The translations under genes and the position numbers were made by a program. Positions 55,723 to 64,000 of a stretch of DNA of 64,000 nt are shown here, in pieces. Under the pieces are notes generated by a model that saw only the letters and a list, made by a program, of their open reading frames with translations, was not told the DNA's origin and did not search any database. The stretch comes from Roseibium alexandrii DFL-11 (GTDB lineage: Bacteria > Pseudomonadota > Alphaproteobacteria > Rhizobiales > Stappiaceae), in the NCBI RefSeq assembly GCF_000158095.2, contig NZ_CM011002.1:1875228-1939227 (forward strand), written 5' to 3'. Numbering within the stretch: position 1 is the stretch's first letter; every line of letters begins with the position of its first letter.

Positions 55723-56847
55723 TCAGCACGCCATGGAAGACACAGCCCTGCCGACGACCGCAACGGCTTGACCGGTGCGCGCGGACTGCTGAGCGGCAAG
55801 CCCCATCTCAACCGCTCTCCGGCCGTCTTCCAAAGAGACTTCCACGTCGGTCTTTTCGCCGCGGACCACAGCGACAAAATGCTGGTGCTGATAGAAGGTC
55901 GAGCCGTTGTGGTCGCCGGCATCCAGGATGGTCGGATCTACCGGAATGTCGATTTGGCGCGGGCCTTTTGGATTGCGCGGCGACACAATCAGTTGGGGAA
56001 CTGGCGGCTCACCCAGGTCTCTTGGCCAAAACCGGCCCGGCCCGGGGACCAAGGCTTCGATCTTGCCAGCAGGCCCGACCGCGGACACTTCCTCCTGATA
56101 TCGGGAGCCTTCTGCGAACATGCACAACTCCAGCATTGCGCGGGCGCCATTTTCGAAATCAACGATCACATACCCGTTGTCGAGGATATCCGGCGTTTCG
56201 CCGTTATAGAGCTCCTCTTTGTGGTTGGCGTCCTGCCCCGCTGAAGCCATCACACGGACCGGCTCGCTCTTGATGATCAGCCGCATCAGATCGAAAAAGT
56301 GACAGCATTTTTCGACAAACGTCCCGCCGGAATAACGGTTGAACCGGTTCCAGGATCCGACCTTGTCCAGGAACGGAAAGCGGTGCTCGCGGATGGTCAG
56401 CATCTTGATGCCGCCCGTTGCCTGTTCCGCCTGTTCGATCAGCGCTGCAATCGGCGGCATGTACCGGTATTCCATCGCGACCCAGACCGGGGCCGGATAT
56501 GATGCCTTGAAGGCCTCGAGCGCTGCAATATCCTTCGGGTCGGTGAACAGCGGCTTTTCAACCAGCAGCGGCAGCGGCCGCTTCTGACGGATTTCCTCCA
56601 TCTGCGGCACATGGCAGTGGTTGGGACTGGCGATCAGAATGCAATCCAACTCTGCGACGCTCAAAACAGCATCGACGGAATCGACGAGCCTGGCATGCGG
56701 CGCAAACTGGGCAGCTTGCTCGGCCATCCCCGCATCCGGTTCGAAAATAACCACCACTTCGGTGTCCGGCAGCAGCGCGATGTTGCGCAAGTGCTCCTGA
56801 CCCATCATGCCACAGCCGATGACACCGTATTTTACCTTTGCAGGCAT
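55723..56847 (-). CDS. Gfo/Idh/MocA family oxidoreductase
   Basis: A 374-residue NAD(P)-dependent sugar oxidoreductase. The Rossmann motif GVIGCGMMGQEHLRN is at residue 8, EKPLF near 97 is the family's catalytic Lys segment. It acts on a sugar or polyol; the substrate is not readable. AAGGAGAG precedes ATG 56847. It follows the GntR regulator on the same strand by 38 bases, next to the monooxygenase operon, so a role in that sugar pathway is likely by context. Confidence 0.88.
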   Translation of the reverse strand: MPAKVKYGVIGCGMMGQEHLRNIALLPDTEVVVIFEPDAGMAEQAAQFAPHARLVDSVDAVLSVAELDCILIASPNHCHVPQMEEIRQKRPLPLLVEKPLFTDPKDIAALEAFKASYPAPVWVAMEYRYMPPIAALIEQAEQATGGIKMLTIREHRFPFLDKVGSWNRFNRYSGGTFVEKCCHFFDLMRLIIKSEPVRVMASAGQDANHKEELYNGETPDILDNGYVIVDFENGARAMLELCMFAEGSRYQEEVSAVGPAGKIEALVPGPGRFWPRDLGEPPVPQLIVSPRNPKGPRQIDIPVDPTILDAGDHNGSTFYQHQHFVAVVRGEKTDVEVSLEDGRRAVEMGLAAQQSARTGQAVAVVGRAVSSMAC

Positions 56848-56885: not shown

Positions 56886-57596
56886 CTATTTCAGTCTTTG
56901 AACGTAATGCGCTCTGTCGGTATCGAACCAGGTGCGCGAATACTCGACCGGCTCGGGCTTGTCAGCCCAGCTGAACCGTTCGATGTATCCTGTGAGAGTG
57001 CCGGGTGCCTTGGTAAAAACCTCTGGCGCCCAGTCCGGCACGGCCTTGATCGTCACCCTGTCTTCAGCGCGAATGATCCAAAAGCCAAGTTGCTTTTGAT
57101 AGAAACGGTAAAGCGAATCTGAAAGCTGGTCCTTGCGGACATAACCGCAATCCCCATCCAGCCAGATTTCCTCCACCGCGATGATTGTTTCGTTGAGGTA
57201 GCGCAGACGGCGGATGCGCGTACCCTCGCCGCTGGTGCCGAACGCAGGCAGACCTTCCGGCTTGGAAACGCGTTCAACCTCAAGAATGTCGGCTTTTGGC
57301 AGTCCACCACCGGATAGGAGCTCCAGACGGAACATGGCGTAAACGCTTTCGTTGGTTCCGCCCTGACGTATGTAGTTTCCCGAGCCCTGGATCCGCTCCA
57401 GTAGGCCTTTTTCCGTAAGATCAGCCAACGCTTTTCGCAGTGTGCCGATGGAGATCCCAAGCTCTTCCGCCATGTCCCGCTCCGGCGGCAAGCGCTCTCC
57501 GTCAAGAAGGCGGCCAGCCGCGATATCCCGAATGAGAAGCTCACTTATCTGGACATAAAGAGGCAGGGCATTTGAGGTCTGCGAGGCGGTTGGCAT
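56886..57596 (-). CDS. GntR/HutC family regulator (UTRA domain)
   Basis: A 236-residue regulator. The winged helix (QISELLIRDIAAGRLLDGER, LPPERDMAEELGISIGTLRK) is at residues 12-75. The UTRA ligand-binding domain fills 90-235 (RIRRLRYLNETIIAVEEIWL). It is divergent from the monooxygenase operon with a 146-bp spacer that holds a palindrome, and it precedes the Gfo gene. In the sulfoquinovose monooxygenase loci of Agrobacterium the regulator SmoD is of the GntR family, which matches. Confidence 0.89.
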   Translation of the reverse strand: MPTASQTSNALPLYVQISELLIRDIAAGRLLDGERLPPERDMAEELGISIGTLRKALADLTEKGLLERIQGSGNYIRQGGTNESVYAMFRLELLSGGGLPKADILEVERVSKPEGLPAFGTSGEGTRIRRLRYLNETIIAVEEIWLDGDCGYVRKDQLSDSLYRFYQKQLGFWIIRAEDRVTIKAVPDWAPEVFTKAPGTLTGYIERFSWADKPEPVEYSRTWFDTDRAHYVQRLK

Positions 57597-57624
57597 TGCG
57601 GTGCGGCGATCTGTCTTTCAAAAA

Positions 57625-57649
57625 TTGATACACTATTGATTTACATCAA
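57625..57649. promoter_or_regulatory. Putative GntR operator
   Basis: TTGAT-TTAC-ATCAA at 57636-57649 is a perfect inverted repeat, preceded by another TTGAT at 57625-57629, an 11-base direct period. It lies in the spacer between the GntR gene and the monooxygenase gene. Confidence 0.45.
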
Positions 57650-57742
57650 GGCGGGTGATAAGCAAGGAAAAAGTGAAGGGCCAAATGAAGGCCTTCGAAA
57701 ACAAACGAAATGCCTAAAAAATATTGGGGAGGAGAGCCTTAA

Positions 57743-58897
57743 ATGACCGTTGTTCCCGTAACTTCGCCGGACCTAGATGCAGCTGAAGTGTCCTGGTTTG
57801 CGGCGCTGTGCTCGGACGACTATCAGTTCCTCGGCGTGCCGGAAGGCCACTTGCGGTCCTCATGGGAGCACTGCTCTTCCATCGTCAAAACAGCCGAGGC
57901 CCAGGGCTTCCGGAACATTCTTTGCCCGTCCTCCTACCAGGTCGGACAGGACACCTTGAGTTTCGTCGCCGGCTGCGCGCCGATTACCGACAAGATCAAC
58001 CTGCTGGCGGCTGTCCGCTGTGGTGAAATGCAGCCGATCATGCTGGCACGGACCATCGCGACGCTGGACCACATGCTGGAAGGCCGGCTGACGGTCAACA
58101 TCATCTCCTCCAACTTCCCGGGCGAAGAAGCCGACAGCGGCTACCGTTATCAGCGCTCCCGCGAAGTGGTTGAAATCCTCAAGCAGGCGTGGACGCAGGA
58201 CGAGATCAACTACGAAGGTCAGATCTACAATTTTAAAGGTCTGACCACGGATCCGGCCCGGCCTTACCAGACAGGCGGCCCCCTGCTTTATTTTGGCGGT
58301 TATTCGCCCGACGCTTTGGATCTCTGCGGCCAGCACTGCGACGTCTACTTGATGTGGCCGGAAAAGATCGAAGAGCTGGAAGGCCGCATGAAAGCTGTTC
58401 ATGCCGTCGCCGAGAAATACGATCGCACCCTCGACTATGGCCTTCGGGTTCACATGATCGTCCGCGATACAGAAAAGGAAGCGCAGGAATACGCCGACTA
58501 CATCGTTTCCAAGCTGGATGATGATCAGGGCACTGCTATCCGCGAACGCGCCCTCGACGCGAAATCCCTGGGCGTCAGCCACCAATCCAAAAACCGCGAG
58601 ATCGCGGACCAATTTGGCTACATCGAACCAAACCTTTGGACCGGGGTCGGCCGGGCCCGTTCCGGTTGCGGCGCGGCGCTCGTCGGTTCCACCGACCAGG
58701 TGATGTCCAAGATCGAGGCCTATCAGAAAATGGGCATCCGGGCGTTTATCTTTTCCGGCTACCCGCATGAAGAAGAAGCCAAGCACTTCGGCGCCCGTGT
58801 CATGCCAAATCTGAAGACCTGCTCGCTTCCCGAAGCTTACGGCCGCGTTCCGGCCGAAACCCCTGCAACACCGCTCGGCAATGGAGTCCGCCGCTAA
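57743..58897 (+). CDS. LLM-class FMN-dependent monooxygenase, SmoC-like
   Basis: A 384-residue luciferase-like enzyme of the SsuD group. Conserved stretches are AEVSWFAALCSDDYQFLGVP, FRNILCPSSYQVGQDTLSF, LDHMLEGRLTVNIISSNFPG and WTGVGRARSGCGAALVGS. Such enzymes take FMNH2 and O2 to cleave a C-S bond, releasing sulfite. The N-terminal stretch and overall form are like sulfoquinovose monooxygenase SmoC from memory. The operon also holds a flavin reductase and an SmoB-like reductase. The ribosome site GGGGAGGAGAG is strong. Substrate remains a prediction. Confidence 0.85.
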   Translation: MTVVPVTSPDLDAAEVSWFAALCSDDYQFLGVPEGHLRSSWEHCSSIVKTAEAQGFRNILCPSSYQVGQDTLSFVAGCAPITDKINLLAAVRCGEMQPIMLARTIATLDHMLEGRLTVNIISSNFPGEEADSGYRYQRSREVVEILKQAWTQDEINYEGQIYNFKGLTTDPARPYQTGGPLLYFGGYSPDALDLCGQHCDVYLMWPEKIEELEGRMKAVHAVAEKYDRTLDYGLRVHMIVRDTEKEAQEYADYIVSKLDDDQGTAIRERALDAKSLGVSHQSKNREIADQFGYIEPNLWTGVGRARSGCGAALVGSTDQVMSKIEAYQKMGIRAFIFSGYPHEEEAKHFGARVMPNLKTCSLPEAYGRVPAETPATPLGNGVRR

Positions 58898-59787
58898 TGG
58901 ATCGCGTCAAACTTAACGACACGCTTGAATTTTCCCGCCTCATCTACGGCATGTGGCGGCTTGGCGACGATGCGGACACTTCTCCGGCTCATGTAGAACG
59001 GAAGATCCAGTCTTGCCTAGATCAGGGCATCACGACCTTCGATCAGGCGGATATCTACGGCGACTACGGTGCCGAAGCCGTGCTTGGCGGCGCGATGAAA
59101 GCCAATCCGTCTCTGCGGAACAAGATGGAGATCATCACCAAGTGTGACATCGTCGCTCCGTGTGGCCGGTATGCCGACGCCAAGGTGAAGTACTACGACA
59201 CGTCGCGGGCTCACATTGATAAATCGGTCGAGATTTCTCTCACCGAAATGGCCATTGAGACGGTCGATCTTCTCCTGATCCACCGCCCGGATCCGTTCAT
59301 GGATCATCATGAAACGGGTGCCGCGCTGGATGATCTGGTGAAGTCCGGCAAGGTGAAAAACATCGGCGTTTCGAACTTCCGTCCTTGGGACTGGGAACTC
59401 CTTCAATCCGCCATGACCAACACGCTAGTGACAAACCAGATCGAGATCTCCTTGAAGGAAATCTCGCCATTTACAAATGGCGATCTGGCCTTCCATCAGC
59501 GGCTCGGCACAAAACTGATGGCCTGGTCCCCGCTTGGTGGCGGATCTCTGATTTCGGAAGGCGGCAAGCTCGGGTCAGTGATGGACGAGATCGCACATTC
59601 CTTCGGTGTTGACCGCTCTGCAGTTGCTGTTGCGTTCCTTTTGGCGCATCCGGCACACCTCATGCCGGTCATGGGCACCAACAATCTGGAGCGTATCGGG
59701 AAAATCTCGGACGCGCTCAAAGTCAAACTTGACCGCGAAACCTGGTACCGCCTTTACGAGGCTGCCCTTGGAAACGAGGTTCCCTGA
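58897..59787 (+). CDS. Aldo-keto reductase, SmoB/YdhF-like
   Basis: A 296-residue aldo-keto reductase. Tetrad: Asp49 and Tyr54 in DQADIYG, Lys82 in ITKCD, His129 in LLIHRPDP. The C-terminal YEAALGNEVP resembles YdhF. In the sulfoquinovose pathway SmoB reduces 6-oxo-glucose to glucose, a good match for this position after the monooxygenase. The ATG overlaps the stop of the monooxygenase (TAATG), so the two are coupled. Other sugar aldehydes are possible substrates. Confidence 0.87.
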   Translation: MDRVKLNDTLEFSRLIYGMWRLGDDADTSPAHVERKIQSCLDQGITTFDQADIYGDYGAEAVLGGAMKANPSLRNKMEIITKCDIVAPCGRYADAKVKYYDTSRAHIDKSVEISLTEMAIETVDLLLIHRPDPFMDHHETGAALDDLVKSGKVKNIGVSNFRPWDWELLQSAMTNTLVTNQIEISLKEISPFTNGDLAFHQRLGTKLMAWSPLGGGSLISEGGKLGSVMDEIAHSFGVDRSAVAVAFLLAHPAHLMPVMGTNNLERIGKISDALKVKLDRETWYRLYEAALGNEVP

Positions 59788-60302
59788 TGACCATGCAAAC
59801 TGCAGATCACACCGTAACGTTCGCGCCGCATTCGGAAAACTCCCGGCTGTTGCGGGATGCCTTTGGCCGATTTGCGACCGGCGTCACGGTTGTGACCACC
59901 CATTCTGAAGACGGCCCGGTCGGGATCACCGCCAACAGCTTTTCTTCCGTCTCCACGGACCCGCCGCTGGTCCTCTGGATGCCGGACAAGGGCTCGCGCC
60001 GGTTCCGCTACTTCGAGCAAGCCGAACGCTATGCAATCCATGTTCTGAGCCACGAGCAGGCAGAGATCTGCAATGGGTTCGTCAAGAACGCACATGCTTT
60101 TGATCAGCTGACATACCAGCTTTGCCAGAACAACGTACCGCTGATCGAGAACTGCCTGGCGCGTTTCGAATGTAAGCGGTTTGCGGCGTATGAGGGCGGC
60201 GATCATTTGATTGTTCTGGGCGAAGTGATGCAGGCTGAAATGCGCACCGGGGATGCGCTGACATTTTTTTCCGGCAAACTCGGACAAATCGCGCCAAAGT
60301 AA
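59787..60302 (+). CDS. Flavin reductase domain protein, SmoA-like
   Basis: A 171-residue NAD(P)H:flavin reductase. LRDAFGRFATGVTVVTT, GITANSFSSVSTDPPLVLWM and LTFFSGKLGQI are the family features. It supplies FMNH2 to a two-component monooxygenase, here the gene two places upstream. Its start overlaps the preceding stop (TGATG). A further ATG at 59793 is possible. With the monooxygenase and aldo-keto reductase it completes a SmoC-SmoB-SmoA-like set. Confidence 0.9.
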   Translation: MTMQTADHTVTFAPHSENSRLLRDAFGRFATGVTVVTTHSEDGPVGITANSFSSVSTDPPLVLWMPDKGSRRFRYFEQAERYAIHVLSHEQAEICNGFVKNAHAFDQLTYQLCQNNVPLIENCLARFECKRFAAYEGGDHLIVLGEVMQAEMRTGDALTFFSGKLGQIAPK

Positions 60303-60373
60303 AAGCGATCACAAAAGAAAAGGTCGGGACGGCCATCGCCCCGCCATAATGGACGGACCAGGGAGGAGCCCGT

Positions 60374-60964
60374 ATGGGGGCATTGCTGGCGGTTTTAAAA
60401 CCGCTTGCCTTCGTCAATTCGCATCTTTTGCGGATCGGACGAGGGATCGGCGTCGTCGCCGTTGCGTTGATGGTGGTTGCGATCCTGATACAGGTCGTGG
60501 CCCGCTATGGGTTAAACAATGCCCTCCCCTGGCCTGATGAGGCCGCCCGTTTCTGCATGCTCTGGATGACCGGCTTGATGGCGCCAACCGCCTTCCGGCG
60601 CGGCGGGTTTGTTGCCATCGACACACTGGTAATCATGCTTCCGAAAATTCTGGCAAGTGTCCTGTCGCTGTTTCTCCTGTTGGTCTCCCTTGTTGTTCTG
60701 CTTGTTGCCGTTCAGATCGGCTACGCCGAGGTCACCGGTTTTGGCGGAAGGTTTGCAACCGCCTCTCTCTACGTTCCCGGCAATTTGACCTTGACCGAAT
60801 GGATCCGGGTGCCGCGCAGCTGGATGATGATGTCGATGTTCGTTGGCGTCATCTTGCTCGCTCTGGTCAATGTTGAGCTCATTCTGCGCAGCCTGATTTC
60901 GCTGATTGGCGGCAAGGACCATCTGCCAAACATTCCGGATGCAGATATGGCGGGGGCGGACTGA
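60374..60964 (+). CDS. dctQ: TRAP transporter small permease (DctQ)
   Basis: A 196-residue protein with four membrane segments (about 25-48, 55-75, 92-115, 145-170). The middle NALPWPDEAARFCMLWMTGLM, followed by RRGGFVAIDTLV, is the DctQ signature. GGGAGGAG is the ribosome site. It overlaps the large permease start (TGATG). It should work with the following DctM and DctP to import an anion, probably an organosulfonate from context. Confidence 0.92.
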   Translation: MGALLAVLKPLAFVNSHLLRIGRGIGVVAVALMVVAILIQVVARYGLNNALPWPDEAARFCMLWMTGLMAPTAFRRGGFVAIDTLVIMLPKILASVLSLFLLLVSLVVLLVAVQIGYAEVTGFGGRFATASLYVPGNLTLTEWIRVPRSWMMMSMFVGVILLALVNVELILRSLISLIGGKDHLPNIPDADMAGAD

Positions 60965-62253
60965 TGCTGATTTGGTTCCTTCCTGTCTTCCTCACCTTCC
61001 TGATGATCGGTTTGCCGGTTTTCTTCGGCCTACTGGCAGCGCCCGGTATTCTGTTGTGGCTGAACGGTCAAGAGCGGGACATCACCCTGCTCTACCGCAA
61101 CGTCTACAATGGCATGGACTCCTTTCCTCTCATGGCGATTCCGTTTTTCATGCTCGCAGGCGAGTTAATGAACAAAGGCGGCATCACCATGCGGCTGGTA
61201 GAGTTCTCTCAGGCGCTGATGGGCCACCTGCGCGGTGGGCTGGCTCACGTCAACATCCTCTCGTCGATGCTGTTTGCCGGCCTTTCCGGCTCAGCGGTTG
61301 CCGATACCTCTGCTCTTGGATCCATGCTGATCCCGGCCATGGAAAAGCAGGGCTACACCCGCAAGTTTGCAGCTGCGATTACAGCGGCCTCCTCGGTGAT
61401 CGGACCGATCATTCCGCCCTCGGGAATCATGATCATCTATGCTTATGTCATGGGCGAAAGTGTTGCCGCGCTGTTCCTCGCCGGTATCGTTCCCGGTGTC
61501 ATGGTCGGCGTCGGCCTGATGCTGATGGTCAAGTTCATGGCCGACAAGTACGACTTCCCTATTGCGTCCCGGAAGTCGACCTGGGCCGAACGTGGTCAGG
61601 CCTCTCTCAAGGCATTCTTCCCGCTTCTGACCCCGGTGATCATCCTTGGCGGCATTCTGGCCGGTGTCTTCACGCCCACAGAGGCCGCAGCGGTTGCCGT
61701 GGCATACGCGCTCTTCATCGGGCTGTTTGTTCTCAGAACCTTGAAGCCGCATGAAATTCCGGGCGTTTTGAACCGGGCTGGCATTACATCAGCCGTTGTG
61801 TTGCTGTTGGTCGGCGCCGCCATGGCCTTCAAAACCGTGGTCAGCCTCAGCTACGCGCCGCAGATCATGGCCGACTTCGTGCTTAGCCTGACCGAAAACC
61901 CGCTGCTCCTGCTGTTCCTGATCAACCTGCTTTTGTTCATCGTGGGTATGTTTCTGGATGCCGGACCGGCGATCATCATTCTTGGACCTATCCTTGGACC
62001 GATCTTTCTCGAACTGGGTGTTGATCCGATCCATTTTGCCATCATCATGAGCGTGAACCTGACCATTGGCCTGGCAACGCCTCCGATGGGGCTGGTCCTG
62101 TTTGTAGCAGCATCTGTCTCCAAGGAACGGGTGGAGACGATATCCAAGGCTATTCTGCCGTTTCTGGCGGTGGAGATCGCAGTGATCTTTCTGATCACTT
62201 ACATTCCGGCACTTTCGATGACGATCCCGCGTCTGACCGGATTTGCCAACTGA
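60964..62253 (+). CDS. dctM: TRAP transporter large permease (DctM)
   Basis: A 429-residue permease with about twelve membrane segments. DSFPLMAIPFFMLAGELMNKGG and SGSAVADTSALGSMLIPAM, then ASSVIGPIIPPSGIMIIYAY are diagnostic. It carries out sodium-driven uptake of the ligand delivered by DctP. Coupled by one-base overlap with dctQ; dctP follows 27 bases later. It replaces the ABC importer known from other sulfoquinovose monooxygenase loci. Confidence 0.94.
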   Translation: MLIWFLPVFLTFLMIGLPVFFGLLAAPGILLWLNGQERDITLLYRNVYNGMDSFPLMAIPFFMLAGELMNKGGITMRLVEFSQALMGHLRGGLAHVNILSSMLFAGLSGSAVADTSALGSMLIPAMEKQGYTRKFAAAITAASSVIGPIIPPSGIMIIYAYVMGESVAALFLAGIVPGVMVGVGLMLMVKFMADKYDFPIASRKSTWAERGQASLKAFFPLLTPVIILGGILAGVFTPTEAAAVAVAYALFIGLFVLRTLKPHEIPGVLNRAGITSAVVLLLVGAAMAFKTVVSLSYAPQIMADFVLSLTENPLLLLFLINLLLFIVGMFLDAGPAIIILGPILGPIFLELGVDPIHFAIIMSVNLTIGLATPPMGLVLFVAASVSKERVETISKAILPFLAVEIAVIFLITYIPALSMTIPRLTGFAN

Positions 62254-62280
62254 TCTGAGCTTTACCTAGGGAGGACTTCA

Positions 62281-63339
62281 ATGCTCAAATCTGCCCTTAA
62301 ATCCTTGACGGTCGCGGCGATGCTCGCCGGGTCCGCATTGAGTGCAACGGCGGCCGACTACACATTGCGCGCCACCGCAAACTCCAACGAAAACGATGAA
62401 GACTATGATGGTCTTGTCGTGTTCAAGAACTTCGTGGAAGCCGCTTCGAACGGTGCCATCGAGGTTGAACTCTTCATCGGCACGCAGCTGTGCTCCAACG
62501 GCGCAGAGTGCCTGCAAGGGGTCGCTGGTGGTGCCATCGATGTTTACATCTCCACATCCGGCGGCGCATCCGGCATCTTCCCGTATGTTCAGGTTCTCGA
62601 CCTGCCGTACATGATGTCCGATGACCGGATTGCAGAACATGTTCTGTCCGGTGACTTCACCCGCACCATGCGCAACATGGCGCTGGAAGACAGTGACAAC
62701 ATGATCCGCCTGATGACCATCGGCAACACCGGCGGCTGGCGGAACTTCGCCAACACAAAGCGGCGTATTGCGGCACCTTCTGACATGGAAGGCCTGAAAA
62801 TCCGTACTGTCGTTGCCGATCTGCCGCAGGTTCTTGTCAAAGCGCTTGGCGCGTCTCCGACCCCGATCCCGTGGCCGGAGCTGTTCACCTCCTTCCAGAC
62901 TGGCGTGGTTGAAGGCTCAAAGAACGGCATCACCGACATCATGGGCATGAAGTTCCCGGATGCCGGCCTGCAATACGTCACCCTCGACGGACATGCCTAC
63001 ATGGGCGCTCTGTGGTGGATGAACAATGAGAAGTTCCTCTCCATGCCGGAGGACATGCGCCGGGTGGTTGTTGATGGTTTCTATGCCCTGCAACAGGCAA
63101 CCTTTGCATCTCCGAAGCGCAAGTCGATCCAGGCCTATGAAGACTTTGTTGCCGGCGGTGGTGATCTTTATGTTCCAACCCCGGCCGAAAAGGCAGCCTT
63201 CAAAGAAGCTGCAAGCCCGGTCTTCGATTGGTTCAAGGAAAACGTTGACCGCGGCGGCGAAATCTTCGGCGCGCTGGAAGAAGCCGTGGCAGCTGCCGAG
63301 GCAGACGTTAACGGCGCGCGCGACGCAGACCTGAACTAA
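62281..63339 (+). CDS. dctP: TRAP transporter substrate-binding protein (DctP)
   Basis: A 352-residue periplasmic receptor. Signal peptide MLKSALKSLTVAAMLAGSAL up to ATAAD. The family parts GGAIDVYISTSGG, MRNMALE and MEGLKIRTV, with Arg near residue 178 in a position used for anion binding, and QTGVVEGSKNGI are visible. AGGGAGGA precedes ATG 62281. Ligand predicted as the substrate of the neighbouring monooxygenase, unproved. A terminator-like hairpin follows. Confidence 0.92.
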   Translation: MLKSALKSLTVAAMLAGSALSATAADYTLRATANSNENDEDYDGLVVFKNFVEAASNGAIEVELFIGTQLCSNGAECLQGVAGGAIDVYISTSGGASGIFPYVQVLDLPYMMSDDRIAEHVLSGDFTRTMRNMALEDSDNMIRLMTIGNTGGWRNFANTKRRIAAPSDMEGLKIRTVVADLPQVLVKALGASPTPIPWPELFTSFQTGVVEGSKNGITDIMGMKFPDAGLQYVTLDGHAYMGALWWMNNEKFLSMPEDMRRVVVDGFYALQQATFASPKRKSIQAYEDFVAGGGDLYVPTPAEKAAFKEAASPVFDWFKENVDRGGEIFGALEEAVAAAEADVNGARDADLN

Positions 63340-63388: not shown

Positions 63389-63480
63389 GGCATTTGTATT
63401 TTCATCCAGACAATCAACCGTGGATATGACACATCTCTTGATGCTACCTGTCTTTAGTCGTTGATTTTTTGGATTGTCAT

Positions 63481-64000
63481 ATGGCTGCCTCATCTCCGGA
63501 ACTGACCAAGCTCGAACCGCCACAAATCTTTGAAACCCGGGACCAGGCCGTCGTTCTGGATGAGGATTTGGCAAGGCTTTTTGGACTGTCGACCTCGAAA
63601 TTCAACCAGCGTGTCAAGGCACATCTGGAGCGGTTTGAGGGCGGATTCGCGTTTCAACTCACTGAAAGTGAAGCAGAAATTTTGATATACCAATCTGGTA
63701 CATCAAGTGGACATGGTGGACGCCGGAAACTTCCATGGGTTTTCACCGAACACGGTGCCGCCATGGCGGCAACCATTATCCGGACTCCGGAGGCAGTGGA
63801 GGCGACCCGGTTCATCATCAAGACATTCGTTGCAGCACGCAAGGCTGGTGTCAGTCCAGAGCCAAACGCAAAGGCAGTGACCGCCAAAACGGGTATGCTT
63901 CCTGCCCCGGCTGATGAACGGCCCGGTCTCCTGGTTAAACTCGACGGCGCCCTTGGCCGGGTTCTCGATGCAATTGCCGATCCGACCGCCGACACCACTG
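63481..64000 (+). CDS. ORF6N domain protein, N-terminal part
   Basis: Open to the right edge, 173 codons, no stop. The N-terminal ORF6N domain is clear: PQIFETRDQAVVLDEDLARL, FGLSTSKFNQRVKAHLERFE, FAFQLTESEAEILI and LPWVFTEHGAAMAATII, residues 14-115. Such proteins are phage or mobile-element linked anti-repressor-like DNA-binding proteins, but many are chromosomal with unknown role. What follows, after residue 120, is Ala- and Pro-rich. Start ATG 63481 chosen; no strong ribosome site seen. Confidence 0.8.
   Translation, partial: MAASSPELTKLEPPQIFETRDQAVVLDEDLARLFGLSTSKFNQRVKAHLERFEGGFAFQLTESEAEILIYQSGTSSGHGGRRKLPWVFTEHGAAMAATIIRTPEAVEATRFIIKTFVAARKAGVSPEPNAKAVTAKTGMLPAPADERPGLLVKLDGALGRVLDAIADPTADTT

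Follow-up and report, generated by a model that had tools for sequence, protein, structure and literature searches.

The closest described counterpart of the locus presented here is the smo gene cluster of Agrobacterium, which serves the degradation of sulfoquinovose (SQ), a sulfosugar of plants and algae, and whose sulfoquinovosidase we take to be a member of glycoside hydrolase family 31 (GH31). According to PMC9594981, this cluster takes up SQ-glycerol through an ATP-binding cassette (ABC) importer and has its own sulfoquinovosidase. Clusters of the same pathway, termed sulfo-SMO after its SQ monooxygenase, are found in marine Roseobacter, where, according to the text of Kaur et al. 2023 (PMC10755693), the NAD+-dependent sulfoquinovosidase SqgA, of family GH188, is near-universal; the same text puts SQ production at about 10 billion tons a year. 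The importer is not discussed in that text, and the figures and supplement may already draw one of the tripartite ATP-independent periplasmic (TRAP) type. The discussion of SQ uptake in PMC12421959 names ABC systems. No description of a TRAP transporter for SQ was found in the literature searched, of which the figures lay outside the search, and an earlier mention is possible. We will focus on a stretch of 64,000 nucleotides (hereafter the window, C1:1875228-1939227) from the genome of Roseibium alexandrii DFL-11, which measures 5.46 Mb in three contigs and is rated 100% complete. In this window, orthologues of the Agrobacterium monooxygenase and 6-oxo-glucose reductase stand with a flavin reductase gene, as in the smo cluster, but they are accompanied by a TRAP transporter (60374-63339) and a GH188 homologue where Agrobacterium has an ABC importer and GH31. 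The pairing of SMO enzymes with GH188 is that of the Roseobacter clusters. We consider it quite probable that these genes form a sulfo-SMO operon whose substrate, SQ or SQ glycosides, is brought in by the TRAP transporter. The pathway is of a known kind, and the TRAP importer would, on comparative evidence, be shared by two SQ pathways.

The initial annotation of the window had listed a GntR regulator, a luciferase-like monooxygenase (LLM), an aldo-keto reductase, a flavin reductase and the three TRAP subunits DctQ, DctM and DctP, and had read the locus as an SMO-type or related sulfonate desulfonation served by TRAP instead of ABC. All of these genes are open frames at the coordinates and on the strands of Table 1, and their families were confirmed by Pfam, the DctQ, DctM and DctP scores being all over cut-off, which places the three TRAP subunits together. 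The one-base overlaps reported between smoC and smoB (at 58897) and between smoB and smoA (at 59787) are real, and dctQ and dctM share one base too, at 60964. SmoC is 77% and 76% identical to 7oh2 and 7olf over 354-355 aligned residues, both entries being titled SQ desulfurising monooxygenases, and its PDB matches fall from 2.8e-208 (7olf) and 2e-207 (7oh2) to 1.2e-53 (7jv3). SmoB is far nearer to 7bby (6.9e-122) and 7bbz (about 1e-121) than to YdhF (6.7e-59); these two entries are listed as aryl-alcohol dehydrogenase and are presumably SmoB. Its full aldo-keto reductase tetrad was found by motif (D49, Y54, K82, H129). The best PDB match of SmoA is 4xhy (9.4e-43), and its assignment as a flavin reductase is at the family level. 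The call of an SMO pathway therefore stands, SmoB and SmoC together being the criterion used for it in PMC13372026.

The genome holds one SmoC match. We compared its locus with the best 80 of at least 570 confirmed relatives, a set that represents the nearest relatives and not a random sample. GntR and SmoB were found beside SmoC in 80/80 loci, SmoA in 78/80 and SqgA in 77/80, and two of the loci with a gap, L063 (one of the two without SmoA) and L071 (one of the three without SqgA), are at contig ends. Since these genes recur in nearly all the related loci, their arrangement is not a matter of chance. The closest loci by SmoC, among the matches listed, belong to an uncultured Labrenzia (99%) and to Roseibium aggregatum (95%). 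The cluster is conserved in Roseibium and roseobacters, and the order sqgA-gntR-smoCBA-dctQMP is also carried by plasmids of Ruegeria sp. TM1040, Rhizobium sp. SL42 and Paracoccus seriniphilus. Public annotation gives such clusters generic names: on the TM1040 megaplasmid, the order reads Gfo/Idh/MocA, GntR, LLM, aldo/keto reductase, flavin reductase, TRAP Q-M-P, Dabb protein, TPR protein, cytochrome c peroxidase and putative sulfate exporter. Homologues of sqgA and smoA are missing from the SMO-TRAP locus of Roseibium aggregatum SY-2-12 (L026). In a sample of 385 genomes of the class, 12 have SmoC-like genes of a second clade, at about 47-51% identity (L098-L109), with a SmoB-like match nearby in 11/12 loci (one partial) and some SqgA-like match in 9/12.

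The initial annotation had also seen no sulfoquinovosidase in the window and had proposed free sulfonate as the substrate, and these two points need revision. A gene of the Gfo/Idh/MocA family, just beyond the part that had been described and separated from gntR by 38 bases, encodes a GH188-type homologue. It matches 8zn9 at 1.2e-168 and the SqgA structures 8qc3 and 8qc2 at about 1e-107, while the next match is at 8.4e-15. In the alignment, its residues K98, Y127, R156, L160, K162, E179, H183 and H313 correspond to K107, Y136, R166, L170, K172, E189, H193 and H321 of ArSqgA, so that the eight unambiguous SQ-contacting residues taken from the text of PMC10755693 are all kept; the ninth, Glu163 in the numbering of that paper, falls one column off, next to a conserved Glu (E154). 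As this homologue with its eight kept ligand residues is in the cluster, adjoining gntR, the substrate probably includes SQ glycosides besides free SQ. Its N-terminus runs directly into the Rossmann motif and, by eye, no signal peptide was seen; glycosides would therefore need to be imported before cleavage. No GH31 sulfoquinovosidase was found in the genome, whose one GH31 match fits alpha-glucosidases (1.6e-76, against 2.8e-28 for YihQ) and was rejected as the glycosidase. This alpha-glucosidase-like gene (C1:3688921-3689904, L082) adjoins a different TRAP large-permease homologue.

The link of the transporter to SQ comes from the genes that it accompanies. In the 74 SmoC loci that have at least 5 kb downstream (the contigs of the other 6 being too short), smoA is followed by a TRAP solute-binding orthologue in 60 cases, by an ABC one in 6 and by neither in 8. 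Permeases and an ATPase are present in 5/6 of the ABC-type loci, and the solute-binding gene of L057 is partial. Considered from the side of DctP, 11 of the 385 sampled genomes of the class have a match of at least 80% identity, and three more have distant matches (39-50%). For three of the 11 (G022, G117 and G222), no SmoC match was obtained at E 1e-100. In these three, the genes after TRAP encode a GH188 homologue (51-53%), a kinase of the PfkB type and a LacD-type aldolase, together with a relative of SQ isomerase, an aldose epimerase, and dehydrogenases of the aldehyde and hydroxyacid types. By family only, this set reads as a pathway of the sulfo-EMP (Embden-Meyerhof-Parnas) type; locus L148 additionally holds a sulfopyruvate decarboxylase subunit. 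In the order of G331, DctP is matched at E 1e-60 or better in 156 of the 390 genomes, and in 155 of these the match reaches at least 1e-152. For comparison, the genome of the window has 11 DctP-family matches, and the 10 others share no more than 29% identity with the DctP of the cluster.

We then sampled 75 dctP loci of this one order by taking the even ranks of the best 150 of the 156 matches, the six weakest never being candidates; 72 loci were fetched and joined to L121, L122 and L148. SmoABC, GH188 and GntR were found in 61, sulfo-EMP-type genes and GH188 in 11, and neither set in 3, so that GH188 is present in 72/75 and the dctP orthologue lies beside SQ genes in the same proportion. The five genes that flank the cluster in the window recur in 0/75, versus 72 for SqgA. 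When the SMO or EMP label is mapped on a quick DctP tree including the window and three distant rows, it changes 5 times, or 4 without counting the distant rows, and 5 times on a tree built without them; the supported (starred) branches alone force at least 3 changes for the EMP group when the distant rows are left out, and 4 when they are included. Of the three distant DctP loci, L227 and L229 have kinase and aldolase relatives and no GH188 at the threshold used. Because DctP goes with SQ genes through pathway changes, and not with one pathway, DctQMP would import SQ or its glycosides, the compounds that the two pathways have in common and hence the most likely cargo of a transporter retained across different catabolic routes. 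In another genome, G310, one locus (L125) has SmoC and GntR without a SmoB match nearby, and a locus on another contig (L151) has TRAP, Sel1 and MauG genes without SQ enzyme genes.

Our reading of the operon rests on gene identity, orthology to solved enzymes, conserved residues and the association of TRAP with two SQ pathways, all of which come from the sequence, and several points weigh against it. The importer and the enzymes can separate, since in 8/74 SMO loci no DctP or ABC solute-binding orthologue was found near smoC (L007, among them, keeps dctQ and part of dctM). In 3/75 dctP loci (L190, L208 and L215), the stretch that was read contains no genes for SQ enzymes. Many forks of the DctP trees, which were built by a quick method, are weak, and the sulfo-EMP label is drawn from families, the SQ isomerase model scoring 252 bits, under its cut-off of 700. 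As for the ligand site, the structure model of DctP is good (pLDDT 87.1), and in the alignment R154, R175 and N215 are equivalent to R156, R177 and N217, which bind isethionate in IseP according to the text of PMC11668362; the three are invariant in 46 aligned proteins. IseP (8t9t/8te9) is a TRAP solute-binding protein for a sulfonate, the role proposed for DctP, and the residues of its Arg-Arg-Asn site are conserved here, but it is about 23% identical to DctP and its ligand is a C2 sulfonate, whereas a C6 sulfosugar or its glycoside is proposed here. Moreover, the same trio is described as binding carboxylates in other TRAP proteins, and IseP, top by Foldseek, comes 28th by VIA-align among close scores; this disagreement led us to drop it, as closest structure, from the substrate evidence. 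The model and the trio are supporting but not decisive for an SQ-type ligand.

A rival possibility is that the enzymes degrade SQ while TRAP imports a different anion, such as a sugar acid, SQ using another carrier. The ligands of TRAP solute-binding proteins are described as typically carboxylates, and the best profile match of DctP, 4p47, is named, as are others near the top, only as a TRAP DctP subunit; the three loci without SQ enzymes would fit as well. However, TRAP stays with SQ genes in the rest of the sample through 4-5 pathway changes on the quick trees, and an ABC cassette occupies the same position after smoA in other loci, so that we find a different anion improbable. An exclusive use of free sulfonate, the alternative raised when the sulfoquinovosidase seemed absent, would suit the lack of a GH31 enzyme, but we hold it to be very unlikely given a GH188 homologue that adjoins gntR, keeps the eight ligand residues checked and accompanies smoC in 77 of the 80 loci. 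It is slightly less credible still that the monooxygenase acts on another sulfonate: MsuD and SsuD belong to the same superfamily and are its next structural neighbours, but at 32-33% identity, against 76-77% for the SQ monooxygenases, and the 6-oxo-glucose reductase and GH188 homologues are linked to it. An SsuD or MsuD function was rejected because of this gap in identity and score.

In the sulfo-SMO operon that we favor, DctP would bind SQ or SQ glycosides, for example sulfoquinovosyl glycerol, in the periplasm, and DctQM would import them driven by an ion gradient. The cytoplasmic GH188 enzyme would then free SQ through a transient NAD+-dependent oxidation at C3. With reduced flavin from SmoA and with O2, SmoC would cleave the C-S bond, releasing sulfite and leaving 6-oxo-glucose, which SmoB would reduce to glucose. 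Sulfite, or sulfate after oxidation, may leave through a YeiH-type exporter encoded past the window or by other routes. The operon would be controlled by GntR through a 27-base box located between gntR and smoC, which contains the inverted repeat TTGAT-N4-ATCAA and is a candidate operator. The core of this box, ATTGATACAC, occurs in 73 of the 85 regions compared between gntR and smoC, among them that of the window. These activities, the species transported, the ion coupling, the sulfite exit and the function of GntR are all predictions from sequence.

Table 1. Features of the locus, in window positions or, where marked C1, in contig positions.
Feature	Position	Strand	Evidence or remark
sqgA-like gene, GH188 NAD+-dependent sulfoquinovosidase homologue	55723-56847	-	PDB matches, ligand residues
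gntR, GntR/UTRA transcription regulator, divergent from smoC	56886-57596	-	Pfam GntR 1.1e-17, UTRA 9.2e-19
Conserved box AATTGATACACTATTGATTTACATCAA between gntR and smoC, candidate GntR operator	57623-57649	.	Intergenic conservation
smoC, orthologue of FMNH2-dependent sulfoquinovose monooxygenase (LLM family)	57743-58897	+	PDB matches 7olf, 7oh2
smoB, 6-oxo-glucose reductase (predicted), aldo-keto reductase	58897-59787	+	PDB matches 7bby/7bbz
smoA, flavin reductase	59787-60302	+	Pfam Flavin_Reduct 2.7e-35
dctQ, TRAP small permease	60374-60964	+	Pfam DctQ 2.4e-20
dctM, TRAP large permease	60964-62253	+	Pfam DctM 4.1e-120
dctP, TRAP solute-binding protein, proposed SQ / SQ-glycoside binder	62281-63339	+	Pfam DctP 5.1e-49
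ORF6N-domain (phage-type) gene, between dctP and the Sel1/MauG pair	63469-64000		Runs on to C1:1939511
Sel1-repeat protein, signal-like N-terminus	C1:1939562-1940056	-	Past the window
MauG-like di-haem protein, divergent from Sel1, start uncertain	C1:1940057-1941376		Past the window; two CxxCH motifs
YeiH-type putative sulfate exporter	C1:1941392-1942387		Genome's only PF03601 gene found

The remark that the window holds no sulfite exporter is literally true, but a YeiH (PF03601) gene lies about 2.2 kb past its end. The product scores 218 bits with PF03601, over the cut-off, and 130.9 bits with TIGR00698, under the cut-off of 232.6, and it may export sulfite or sulfate. Seven TauE-type sulfite exporters were found in the genome, all of them far from the cluster (the nearest at C1:1798892, about 134 kb from smoC), and they were not assigned to it. 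Two genes of the PF00174 sulfite-oxidase family are located elsewhere in the genome.

Directly 3' of dctP and of the ORF6N gene, of which homologues (58-63%) lie downstream of dctP in L011, L018 and L020, stands the Sel1/MauG pair (C1:1939562-1941376, L119:4563-6377). The MauG-like protein resembles MauG and the di-haem cytochrome c peroxidases by its CCP_MauG domain (Pfam 6.7e-34) and its two haem-binding motifs; it differs from them in that its gene is here accompanied by those of a Sel1-repeat protein and of a TRAP transporter, and its scores with the five NCBIfam models listed are below cut-off. Antisense to the Sel1 gene, and continuing into the MauG-like gene, there is a long open frame of 660 codons (L119:4395-6374); it is largely matched in 8 relatives and can mislead gene callers.

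Among the 75 sampled dctP loci, Sel1 is present in 58 and the MauG-like gene in 57, the latter in 45/61 SMO loci, 10/11 sulfo-EMP-type loci and 2/3 loci without SQ enzymes. In the SMO set, it occurs in 37/48 TRAP-type loci with at least 8.3 kb downstream, in 0/6 ABC-type loci and in 0/8 with neither importer. Sulfite was considered as a possible reason for its presence, but the MauG-like gene goes with TRAP rather than with SMO, as it is also found in the sulfo-EMP-type and SQ-enzyme-free dctP loci. A phylogeny-aware test of this association on the SmoC tree was not significant, with low power (4 independent starred-branch contrasts, of which about 1.9 agree and 0 disagree, median p 0.5). YeiH and MauG genes occur together in 6 of the 48 TRAP-type SMO loci, and so are not mutually exclusive. 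The sulfo-EMP-type clusters L148, L149 and L150, in genomes without a SmoC match, have the same TRAP, Sel1 and MauG genes. Eight more distant MauG-like genes (45-48% identity), read in 8 stretches, and two others, read in shorter stretches, were accompanied by no match to Sel1 or to the SQ-type DctP, although one of these genes is situated about 6 kb away from the sqgA of its own genome.

The presence of Sel1 and MauG-like genes with TRAP is strongly established as a co-location, and not as a function. One may go further and regard DctQMP, Sel1 and the MauG-like protein as a mobile cassette for sulfosugar uptake, re-used across SQ pathways, in which a periplasmic haem enzyme would serve the transporter by oxidatively modifying Sel1 or by acting on the ligand or on sulfite. 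We consider this tentative and rather doubtful; if it is true, the importer would be a TRAP transporter with a dedicated haem enzyme. In any case, the Sel1/MauG pair is an uncharacterised companion of the TRAP transporter. If TRAP does carry SQ, an ion-driven uptake route for this sugar would be common in a large bacterial group, considering the proportion of genomes with a DctP match in the order sampled, and its genes would provide a marker of SQ uptake that is independent of the catabolic pathway.

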